DNA of 64,000 nt, taken from Undibacterium umbellatum. Its GTDB lineage: Bacteria; Pseudomonadota; Gammaproteobacteria; Burkholderiales; Burkholderiaceae_D. Shown piece by piece: positions 1,497-60,215 of this stretch; positions within the stretch are counted from its first letter, which is position 1, and each line of letters begins with the position of its first letter. The position numbers were made by a program, and so were the translations under genes. The stretch spans positions 62,001-126,000 of the forward strand of contig NZ_JACOFX010000016.1 in the NCBI RefSeq assembly GCF_014284125.1, in the 5' to 3' direction. The notes under the pieces were generated by a model that was not told where the DNA came from, made no database searches, and was given only the letters and a program-made list of their open reading frames with translations.

Positions 1497-1560
1497 ATAG
1501 TATTCATCTCCCTCCAATCGACGGTCAAACCGGTATCAAGATATATGGTTGGTGGTCGCG

Positions 1561-1800
1561 TTGACGTTGTTTTTGACTTTCGCAGTTCCCATGTGTAGCC
1601 GCCGTTTGTGCAGTACAGAAAATGGATTAAGAAATGACCGTTGTCTGAGCGTAGCGAGTTTCGGGCATTTCCCATTTTTTGTACTGCACAAACGGGAACC
1701 CCCTTCAGGGGGCGACTACGCCTGGGTCGCCTTTCTTTGAATACTTTCTTTTGGCGACGCAAAGAAAGTATTTCGGCTGCCGGGCCGAGACCCGGCTTGT
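1561..1800 (+). repeat. Dispersed structured repeat, copy A
   Basis: About 240 bp that recurs near 42138-42375. It folds into successive stems: 1602-1625 with 1672-1695 (24 bp with one G-U, 46-nt loop), CCCCC-TTCA-GGGGG at 1699-1712, 1741-1751 with 1761-1771 around TGGCGACGC, and GCCGGG/CCCGGC at 1779-1796. Several base pairs differ from copy B on both sides of the stem at once, as expected if the fold is selected. It lies downstream of a plus-strand gene, as copy B does. Short ORFs across it are not convincing genes. Function unknown. Confidence 0.85.
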
Positions 1801-1860
1801 ACCCATGAAGGGCAATCTTTTTATTCAAAGTACGGCATTCAACAAGCAACAAGACAGACT

Positions 1861-1920
1861 ACGAACGTCACTGGAGCGCCAGCCCGGTGGATTCCAGCCA
1901 AAAGCACGCTGGAATGACGT
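1861..1920 (+). repeat. Second repeat module (inverted TGGATTCCAGC/GCTGGAATGACG type)
   Basis: A stretch beginning ACGAACGTCACTGGAGCGCC contains the inverted pair GGATTCCAGC ... GCTGGAATGACG. The same module follows the structured repeat again at about 42461-42500, there lacking the 22 bases between the two TGGA direct repeats. This suggests that the module travels with, or accumulates beside, the structured repeat. Confidence 0.6.
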
Positions 1921-41693: not shown

Positions 41694-42071
41694 ATGGACA
41701 CCGCTTACCCCGACATCATCGCCATGCTGAACCAGTATTTCGATGGCATACACCATAGTGACACCAGCATACTGGCCAAGGTATTCCACCCCGAAGCCCA
41801 CTATTACTGCGCCACCGAAGGTCATTTACTGCATCTGGACATGCAGCAATACTTCCCCGTCGTCGACAAACGCCCCTCACCCGCCAGCAAAAACGAAAAT
41901 CGCCGCGACCGCATCGTTTCCCTGGAAATAGCAGGACCAGTCACCGCCTTCGCCCGCGTCGAATGCGCGATTGCCAATAAGTTTTTTACCGATTTTTTAA
42001 CGCTGGTAAAACTGGATGGCAGGTGGCAGATTGTGAGCAAGGTGTTTCATTTTGAGTTGATGGACACCTAA
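41694..42071 (+). CDS. NTF2-like (nuclear transport factor 2 / lumazine-binding-like) protein
   Basis: 125 residues of the SnoaL/NTF2-like cone fold: YPDIIAMLNQYFDGIHHSDTSILAKVFHPEAHYYCATEGHL at the start and a C-terminal DFLTLVKLDGRWQIVSKVFHFEL. This Pfam-type putative lumazine-binding family is widespread and mostly of unknown function. It is third in the GST, tautomerase, NTF2 gene row. The structured repeat begins within 70 bp of its stop. Confidence 0.82.
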   Translation: MDTAYPDIIAMLNQYFDGIHHSDTSILAKVFHPEAHYYCATEGHLLHLDMQQYFPVVDKRPSPASKNENRRDRIVSLEIAGPVTAFARVECAIANKFFTDFLTLVKLDGRWQIVSKVFHFELMDT

Positions 42072-42137
42072 AAAATCAAATCAATTACCTTTAAGAATAT
42101 GAACTCAGGTCGTATTGACGTTGTTTTTGATCTTGGT

Positions 42138-42375
42138 GTTGATGTTGTTTTTGACTTTCCGCAGTTCCCATGTGTCGACGCCGTTTGTGCGGTACAGAAA
42201 ATGGAAAAAGAAGGGCCGCTGTTTGAGCCGCAGGCGAGTTTCGGACCTTCCCATTTTTTGTACCGCACAAACGGGAACCCCCTTCAGGGGGCGACGACGC
42301 CTGGGTCGCCTTCTTTGGCATACCTTTCTTGGCGACGCAAGAAAGGTATGTAGCTGTCGGGCTATCCCCGACCTG
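42138..42375 (+). repeat. Dispersed structured repeat, copy B
   Basis: Second copy of the element at 1561-1800. Stems: 42181-42204 with 42251-42274 (46-nt loop, exactly as in copy A), CCCCC-TTCA-GGGGG at 42278-42291, 42319-42330 with 42339-42350, and GTCGGG/CCCGAC at 42356-42372. Paired differences from copy A: an A-T pair becomes G-C in the first stem (GTGCAGTAC against GTGCGGTAC), a pair is added in the third, and GCC/GGC becomes GTC/GAC in the last. A partial tandem duplication (GTTGATGTTGTTTTTGACTT type) lies at 42114-42160. Unknown function. Confidence 0.85.
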
Positions 42376-59017: not shown

Positions 59018-59926
59018 TCAGATACCCATGGCCAGATCGCGGCCCTTGTCCATTGCAAAGATGGCGTCCCCTGCAGTCAGGGTCTTTTCCACCACAGCGC
59101 GAAACTTCAAATGCTCTACAGGTTTGGTCAGATAACTGCTGCAACCTGACAGGGAACCACGTATACGGTCAAAAGGTGAAGACTTGCTGGTTAACATAAC
59201 GACTGGCGTGTGCTTGGTTTGCGGATGACGACGGATGATCTTGCAAATTTCATAGCCGTCGGCACCGGGCATGACGATGTCGAGGAAGATGATGTCGTAG
59301 TTTTTTTTCTCCAGCATTTGCAAGGCTTGTTCACCTGTTTCTGCACAGTCGGAAGCAATCTTCATGGAACGCAATTCAAGGTCAATCTTGATTCTTGCGG
59401 TGGGGCTGTCATCAATAATCAAAGCGCGATGAGCGGTTTGCATGACCGCTGCCTGAAAATTCTTTTGCACCAGTGGTTGCACAATAGCTGCTTTGTTCAT
59501 ATCTGCCTTTTGAAGCATGGCGGCACCGGCGGGTAATTCCGCTGGCAACACTTTTTCCAGCTCACCTGCTACCTGATCCAGCAAAGCCAGCATCTTGGTC
59601 GGAACCAGGGGATGCAGTAAATGATATTTACCTGGCTTTGCCTGACCCACATTCGAAATAAAAACGGTTGCGGGTTCAGGAATATTGCGTGTTGTTATCA
59701 GCTCCTGCAAAGCAGCCCTGGCCTGACCATTGTCGGGGTCAAGTATGACGATATCCGGATCAGCAGCCTGACTGGCATCAAACAGCGCATAGGAATGCTT
59801 GCGACCGCTGGCCATGGTCAAGCTGAGCACGCTGCGCACCAGACGCAATTCATACTCAGACAAACCAAATACACTAATCAGAATTTTTTTTGAAGCGCAG
59901 GGGAGCGCCGTAGAGATGCTGTTCAT
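59018..59926 (-). CDS. pilG: PilG-like response regulator with an extra receiver-like N-terminal domain
   Basis: 302 residues from the ATG at 59926 (GAGGTAGG upstream). PilG is normally about 135 residues; here the C-terminal half (about 180-300) is the receiver, HRALIIDDSPTARIKI with FLDIVMPGADGYEI. The N-terminal half looks like a degenerate second receiver: KKILISVFGLSEYELRLVRSVL, PDIVILDPDNGQA, ATVFISN and LLHPLVPTKMLALL. This fits a fused or expanded PilG. It stands first in the pilG-pilH-pilI-pilJ-chpA row. Confidence 0.85.
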   Translation of the reverse strand: MNSISTALPCASKKILISVFGLSEYELRLVRSVLSLTMASGRKHSYALFDASQAADPDIVILDPDNGQARAALQELITTRNIPEPATVFISNVGQAKPGKYHLLHPLVPTKMLALLDQVAGELEKVLPAELPAGAAMLQKADMNKAAIVQPLVQKNFQAAVMQTAHRALIIDDSPTARIKIDLELRSMKIASDCAETGEQALQMLEKKNYDIIFLDIVMPGADGYEICKIIRRHPQTKHTPVVMLTSKSSPFDRIRGSLSGCSSYLTKPVEHLKFRAVVEKTLTAGDAIFAMDKGRDLAMGI

Positions 59927-60215
59927 GAGCGACCTACCTCTTAACGAAACACCGCTGTTGCGGATTACGGTACCTGGCTGCCCTGCCATGATCAGCGAGG
60001 GCCCTGTAGTTTTGCGTCCCACTCTTTCGGATGGTTTGCCTTTAAACAACGCTGATGCTATCCCTATGAACTACTTCTCATCCATAGGGCGGTACACCAA
60101 CCACAGTGCCTCATGCGAAGCACCGTTACCCCAATGTAGTTCAAGAATTTATAAGCTACAAGGAAAAAGTTAACATTTTTTTGCTTTTTATTTTTTCATG
60201 CAAAGTATGCAAAAT

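Follow-up and report, generated by a model that had tools for sequence, protein, structure and literature searches.

Two structured repeats in a 64,000-nucleotide stretch of the Undibacterium umbellatum genome (here the window) belong to a dispersed chromosomal element whose arms, judged from their sequence, fold as a single strand when read outward. Covariation among the copies shows a 5′ hairpin domain followed by an H-type pseudoknot (PK1) and strongly indicates that the first loop of PK1 (L1) lies in the major groove of the second stem (S2) as a parallel U·A-U / C·G-C triple helix of about seven steps. About 60% of sequences also allow a second pseudoknot (PK2). We regard the fold itself as the firm part of the explanation and hold it with high confidence. 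The folded outward strand would be RNA or single-stranded DNA, most likely RNA, and an action of that RNA near transcript ends is the reading that we favour tentatively, at somewhat less than even chances.

The initial annotation had reported two copies, at 1561-1800 (copy A) and 42138-42375 (copy B), with a shared stem order and compensatory changes, and this description holds. The stem order is identical in both, their mean column identity is 86% (in an alignment with 20 bases of flank per side), and the changes are present in the long stem (GCAGTAC/GTACTGC in A, GCGGTAC/GTACCGC in B), the last stem (GCCGGG/CCCGGC in A, GTCGGG/CCCGAC in B) and the loop tip (GAAATG/CATTTC in A, GAAGG/CCTTC in B). 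Compared with dinucleotide shuffles, the folding z-scores are −6.68 for A and −7.63 for B, and for each copy none of 200 shuffles folded equally well. The proposed extent of copy A proved too short, as the element continues past both sides of 1561-1800. The stems exist, but not all as the separate hairpins first described: some form one pseudoknot, in which the loop of HP-II pairs with the segment preceding it, and the last stem belongs to the second pseudoknot with its flanking bases. The features of the two copies are as follows.

1549-1583, plus strand: copy A, hexamer-phased KTTGVB tract with TTTTTGACTTT, 5′ side of the arm (from the phased TTG count)
1588-1726, plus strand: copy A, HP-I, outer helix CCCA/TGGG (1588-1591 / 1723-1726) with the long stem inside (from folding and alignment)
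1640-1664, plus strand: copy A, apical module GTTGTCTGAGC..GCGAGTTTCGG
1699-1712, plus strand: copy A, small hairpin CCCCC/GGGGG after GGGAA
1727-1772, plus strand: copy A, PK1 (from covariation)
1727-1731 with 1753-1757, plus strand: copy A, PK1 stem S1
1732-1739, plus strand: copy A, PK1 loop L1, TTTCTTTG
1740-1752 (one T extra) with 1761-1772 (AAAGAAAGTATT), plus strand: copy A, PK1 stem S2
1773-1796, plus strand: copy A, PK2, TCGG 1773-1776 with CCGA 1785-1788 and GCCGGG 1779-1784 with CCCGGC 1791-1796
1860-1919, plus strand: copy A, tail with the palindrome GGATTCCAGC..GCTGGAATGACG, common to many copies
42111-42159, plus strand: copy B, hexamer-phased tract ending in TTTTTGACTTTC (from the phased TTG count)
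42167-42305, plus strand: copy B, HP-I (CCCA 42167-42170 / TGGG 42302-42305), long stem and apical module
42306-42350, plus strand: copy B, PK1 (from covariation)
42306-42310 with 42331-42335, plus strand: copy B, PK1 stem S1
42311-42318, plus strand: copy B, PK1 loop L1, TTCTTTGG
42319-42330 with 42339-42350 (AAGAAAGGTATG), plus strand: copy B, PK1 stem S2
42351-42372, plus strand: copy B, PK2, TAG 42351-42353 with CTA 42362-42364 and GTCGGG 42356-42361 with CCCGAC 42367-42372

Read 5′ to 3′, an arm thus runs from the KTTGVB tract through HP-I, a small GGGAACCCC hairpin and the pseudoknot module to a tail and the palindrome. The tract is hexamer-phased and variable in length, with a median of six phased TTG in the 120 nt before the 37 own copies against one downstream and two after shuffling. 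Repeat arrays occur in or beside some copies: two (GGGTTG)n stretches, 126 bp, lie around 99 N between the arms of one pair on an own contig (C6; L042 2304-2656), (GTTGCT)n or (GTTGCA)n arrays are found in other copies, a Silvimonas pair (L138) has (GTTGCT)n and (GGCAAA)n, and a 100-bp (TTTGG)n array lies immediately outside a Burkholderia pair (L067 5503-5602). HP-I consists of the outer helix, the long stem and an apical internal loop. The apical loop TYTGAGC..GCGAGT recurs, between stems that differ, in 8 of 60 non-redundant upstream regions and in none of 60 downstream, the string GAGC..GCGAGTT in 11 of the 60 upstream regions, and the loop is absent from most distant relatives. In two copies (own C59:298358-298800 and L218) the apical loop holds an insert of about 80 nt that is rich in hairpins, perhaps another small repeat for which this loop is a target.

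The initial annotation had considered that there might be no further copies, and this is not the case. BLAST with copy A gave 48 matches in its own genome (fragments and opposite-strand matches counted), a covariance model of the 3′ module gave 40, and a profile search of the fetched loci found 37 copies with both ends, A and B being two of them. In alignments of 36 copies, which omit the one with a hairpin inserted in its apical loop, 16 of the 46 pairs predicted by RNAalifold are kept via two-sided changes in at least one copy. Mismatched stems had also been named as a possible objection. Most pair cells are Watson-Crick (1468 of 1685, with 151 G-U), leaving 19 A-C and 47 other, and one subtype does carry mismatches in the long stem.

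PK1 is the conserved core, with an S1 of 5 bp and an S2 of 12-13 bp. In S1 the segment TCGCC, before the pyrimidine tract, is complementary to the HP-II loop GGCGA. Using a pattern that fixed S2, the last five L1 bases and the GC preceding the purine strand, we collected at least 118 bacterial contig stretches and two viral ones; 141 hits were read and 71 non-redundant sequences kept. Among the matches listed, all five S1 pairs form at the predicted register in 53 of the 71, at other registers in at most 7%, and, when loops are permuted among sequences, in a mean of 16% with a maximum of 31% (2,000 trials); the full S1 is missing in 18 of the 71. Perfect pairings include TCGCC/GGCGA, GCTGC/GCAGC, GGTGC/GCACC, CCGCC/GGCGG, TTGCC/GGCAA, TGGCC/GGCCA and TGCCC/GGGCA. 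An ungapped alignment of 36 of the 71 (35 distinct), having a three-A run and an 8-nt loop, shows four of the five S1 pairs changed on both sides and a whole-structure covariation score of 0.289, against 0.094 (sd 0.012) for shuffled and at most 0.081 for slid versions. Two of five whole-structure measures (how many pairs and how many pair types change) are no higher than in the shuffles, because only seven pairs vary. Unpaired S1 cells amount to 17%, and three rows (L090, L094 and L165) pair with S1 shifted by one base. Relatedness of the sequences, which can raise covariation scores, is partly controlled here, the permutation and slid versions being a partial answer. Plain tandem hairpins were rejected as a description because the HP-II loop pairs with the segment preceding that hairpin. 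Behind PK1, the H-type PK2 is possible in 57 of 94 non-redundant sequences against 6.8% after shuffling (with flexible geometry), and in the own genome it takes two alternating forms, TCGG/CCGA and TAGC/GCTA.

For the triple helix we used a profile of S2 and its 3′ side only, L1 and S1 being excluded to avoid pattern bias. In the loci collected it returned 250 unique sequences, 245 with a clear hairpin (36 from the own genome, 18 from relatives, 161 from pattern contigs among the matches listed and 30 from the phylum sample), and we kept the 189 whose S1 score was at least 4.5 of 5, dropping 56 with a weak S1. In 151 of these, L1 agrees in parallel with the S2 purine strand (U for A, C for G) over its first seven bases, leaving 38 without a 7/7 match; an antiparallel Watson-Crick match is found in 98 of the 189 at the best of three registers. 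Counted over the 59 unique combinations, 59% show the full parallel match, compared with a mean of 26% and a maximum of 41% in 5,000 permutations. Pairing of L1 with the 3′ strand of S2 as an antiparallel switch was tried and rejected: it fits symmetric A/G runs, but where the two models predict different strings it explains 2 of 24 combinations and the parallel model 11. Asymmetric pairings include AAGAGAAAG with TTCTCTTTG, AAGAAAAAG with TTCTTTTTG and AAAGAAAAG with TTTCTTTTG; AAAGAGGT with TTTTTGGC is an example of an exception to the parallel match. The register that this sequence covariation indicates is what a pseudoknot would show if its L1 ran into the S2 major groove where S1 and S2 meet, as the loop does in telomerase RNA.

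The wobble pairs bear on which strand folds. Counted by pair, G-U stands at 20 and A-C at 8 of 47 in the 36 copies; by cell the counts are 151 and 19, the former inflated by invariant G-U pairs. In PK1 S1 of the 71-sequence set (among the matches listed) there are 14 G-U and 2 A-C, rows with fewer than three Watson-Crick pairs being omitted and a one-base shift allowed. Since G-U prevails over A-C, it is the outward strand that folds, as RNA or single-stranded DNA. The initial proposal of selection on a folded single strand is thereby supported, by the pseudoknot covariation across genera with its controls, the joint variation of loop and stem and the G-U excess.

By sequence, 33 of 60 genomes match, namely the own genome, 28 of 35 congeners and 4 of 24 others of the order; by covariance model R1 the number is 35, with the same 28 congeners and 6 of the 24 others, at up to 41 matches per genome, and 7 of the 35 congeners have no copy by this model. 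In a phylum sample the covariance model matched 91 of 398 genomes and 46 of 213 genera. A single family that lies outside the class (f57, e.g. G259, G135) accounts for 42 of these genomes and 8 of the genera, and without them 49 genomes in 38 genera are left. The matches of this family to the PK model, mostly with weak E-values but two of them near E = 1e-9, may be real members or chance. Named hosts of pattern hits, among the matches listed, include Caballeronia, Paraburkholderia, Variovorax, Dechloromonas, Thiobacillus, Methylomonas, Lysobacter, Neisseria and Silvimonas. The few hits in Bacteroidota and Selenomonadales may be chance, contamination or real; S1 complementarity is kept in three Selenomonadales MAGs (L142, L167, L169), with TGCCC/GGGCA, TGCCT/GGGCA and CGCCC/GGGCG, and in Chitinophaga skermanii (L112) with four of five pairs. 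A U. macrobrachii locus and a locus from a congener are collinear, with 72-76% identity. None of 50,697 phage records and 2 of 72,556 plasmid records match copy A. The two viral contig stretches noted above match the HP-II pattern, and an IMG/VR viral contig carries a full module (L183 10238-10321), in what may be phage sequence or host flank.

The initial annotation had placed both copies behind plus-strand genes. This is true of the two (ORFs 642-1496 upstream of A and 41694-42071 upstream of B), yet in the genus it is largely a consequence of the element's lying between convergent genes. Simple ORF calls put a same-strand gene upstream of 31 of the 37 own copies, a count that is misleading because any element between convergent genes scores in this way, and we replaced it by orientation classes. 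Single copies in the own genome and congeners (n = 42, some of the loci being orthologues of one site) lie between convergent genes in 20 cases, divergent genes in 2, in tandem sense in 15 and antisense in 5. The corresponding counts are 10, 10, 15 and 13 in pattern contigs (48 of 50 among the matches listed, two having no upstream gene) and 7, 2, 4 and 6 in the phylum sample (19 of 20). Only within the genus do copies tend to lie behind genes.

We favour RNA action near transcript ends because the strand bias and the triple helix fit RNA best, and because of the placement in the genus. In this explanation the fold would act in RNA read out of neighbouring genes, where the triple-helix pseudoknot near the 3′ side of the transcript would stall 3′-to-5′ exonucleases and so fix or stabilise the transcript end; with head-to-head arms, read-through from either side would end in one sense arm, and copies would spread and exchange modules by recombination or an enzyme. 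Against it, the placement bias is gone outside the genus and may within it be mere avoidance of promoters, and single-stranded DNA could likewise accommodate G-U pairs and a parallel triplex. At copy A the element's own strand has no promoter or terminator match. In one Burkholderia pair, moreover, the two arms fold on each other as a single hairpin over 606 nt, which would compete with PK1.

The main rival, which we judge rather unlikely, is that the folded arm serves, in single-stranded DNA, as the signal of a mobile element that is non-autonomous and resembles a REPIN on a much larger scale; the head-to-head arm pair would be the moving unit and an enzyme acting in trans would recognise the folded arm. 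The head-to-head pairing speaks for this. Among the matches listed in named pattern contigs, neighbours within 1.2 kb are divergent in 50 cases, convergent in none and tandem in 3 (51, 0 and 3 in a rerun), and the congener loci give 12, 1 and 1; one Burkholderia genome supplies 13 of the at least 118 stretches, and the pair counts are therefore not independent. At a median spacing of 474 (among the matches listed) the arms are too close for cargo genes. Dispersed copies with a patchy distribution, seven of the 35 congeners having none by model, point the same way. So do two orthologous loci, in five and four genomes with the own included, at which the element is retained and the module type differs. 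That L1, S2 and PK2 differ together at both, with S2 partly decayed in one copy, speaks for the favoured explanation. Other results stand against a mobile DNA. No clean empty site was found at two further loci where it was sought, one site (G026) having an apparent remnant and another (G016) lacking the element but being too diverged. Dependence on Y1 transposases (PF01797) was rejected, as they do not track the element: the complete genome G039 has 11 copies and no PF01797 match, and six of the seven congeners without the element carry 1 to 6 (G005 six, G013 five). We also grouped the 781 neighbouring ORFs of at least 120 aa from the pattern loci (among the matches listed) into single-linkage clusters. 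A Pfam search of ten representatives recognised no linked partner and no mobility gene, the matches being kinase/ATPase, LysR, beta-propeller, aldehyde dehydrogenase, short-chain dehydrogenase, RND transporter and GntR, with three representatives unmatched.

It is improbable that the arms are instead independent small RNA genes, each read outward from the middle of the pair and working in trans. A two-way promoter would suit divergent pairs that share a centre, and TTGAC-like hexamers recur in the 5′ tract, but many copies are single, the length of the tract varies between orthologues, and the only promoter match at copy A (0.5 expected) is on the opposite strand. Likewise improbable is a double-stranded DNA feature, a cruciform or mirror-repeat H-DNA acting on supercoiling, replication or recombination: L1 is the mirror image of the S2 pyrimidine arm, one Burkholderia pair is a near-palindrome of about 600 bases and copies in the genus favour convergent genes, but such structures need neither the S1 loop pairing, which covaries most clearly, nor a bias of G-U over A-C.

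The element has no Rfam 15 family above the gathering cut-off in the window, so the initial statement that it is not a named family stands as far as Rfam goes. The window's only Rfam match lies away from the element, a c-di-GMP-I riboswitch at 59966-60050 (minus strand, 57.7 bits) at the start of the minus-strand ORF 59018-60049. The sole match in the loci of 15 relatives is a CRISPR repeat, also away from the element, and a search of 601 bases around copy A with E up to 5 gave one hit, at E = 5. In the literature searched, which covered neither preprints nor most subscription papers, we found no description of the element and no occurrence of six core strings of 15-17 nt; passages of PMC3733652 and PMC2267715 do not describe it.

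We raise, as a guarded proposal that falls short of probable, that the RNA favoured above represents a previously undescribed bacterial class, a dispersed paired repeat across beta- and gammaproteobacteria that controls the fate of transcript ends genome-wide. The transcript of such a class might have at its end a triple-helix pseudoknot of the telomerase type, in many cases followed by a second pseudoknot, and the class would then correspond in bacteria to those triple-helix elements of eukaryotes and viruses by which RNA ends are protected. Dispersed repeats in bacteria are commonly regarded as simple hairpins and often dismissed as junk. The repeat described here has many copies and retains across many genera an apparent tertiary fold, pseudoknot and triple helix, which is readable from covariation alone. 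Three questions become testable: whether bacteria guard RNA ends with triple helices, how complex repeats are maintained and spread when no partner gene is visible, and whether masking is needed for ORFs that are called across repeats of this kind.

Among known systems, bacterial H-type pseudoknots with base triples include type III antitoxin RNAs and the SAM-II and preQ1 riboswitches. Unlike the former, the element is dispersed and does not appear to form a tandem array before a toxin gene; unlike the latter, it does not lead any one fixed gene. Small, non-coding, dispersed inverted repeats are also known as MITEs, Correia and ERIC among them, and the element shares these traits, but its fold covaries, and neither a target duplication nor, among Y1 transposases and the ten neighbouring ORF representatives, a donor transposase was found for it. 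As to terminal inverted repeats of the MITE type, the pairs are inverted and one Burkholderia pair is near-palindromic, whereas single copies have no partner. Elements of the REP, BIME and REPIN kind (GTAG super-family; see PMC3733652) are likewise dispersed, intergenic, often in inverted pairs and without cargo, a GTAG REP being a 20-40 bp imperfect palindrome with a terminal tag. Inverted pairs are found here as in REPINs (50 of 53 neighbours within 1.2 kb divergent among the matches listed, the counts not being independent). The tail end ...GGAATGACG, which reads CGTCATTCC... on the other strand, appears to resemble the CGTC-tagged REPs of PMC3733652, a likeness drawn from their description, and the palindrome is only the tail of the element. 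The element differs from REPs and REPINs in having, in place of a 20-40 bp palindrome, an arm of some 200 nt that contains one or two pseudoknots and probably a triple helix, and in a presence that does not follow Y1 (RAYT-type) transposases. The closest structural likeness suggested by the predicted fold is to a different group. In the telomerase RNA pseudoknot and in ENE/MALAT1 a U-rich loop lies in the major groove of a stem, parallel to an A-rich strand. In the element L1 would likewise match the S2 purine strand in parallel, in the same pseudoknot order; it differs in being bacterial and multi-copy, with a mixed U/C loop and often a second pseudoknot, and the likeness does not imply homology.
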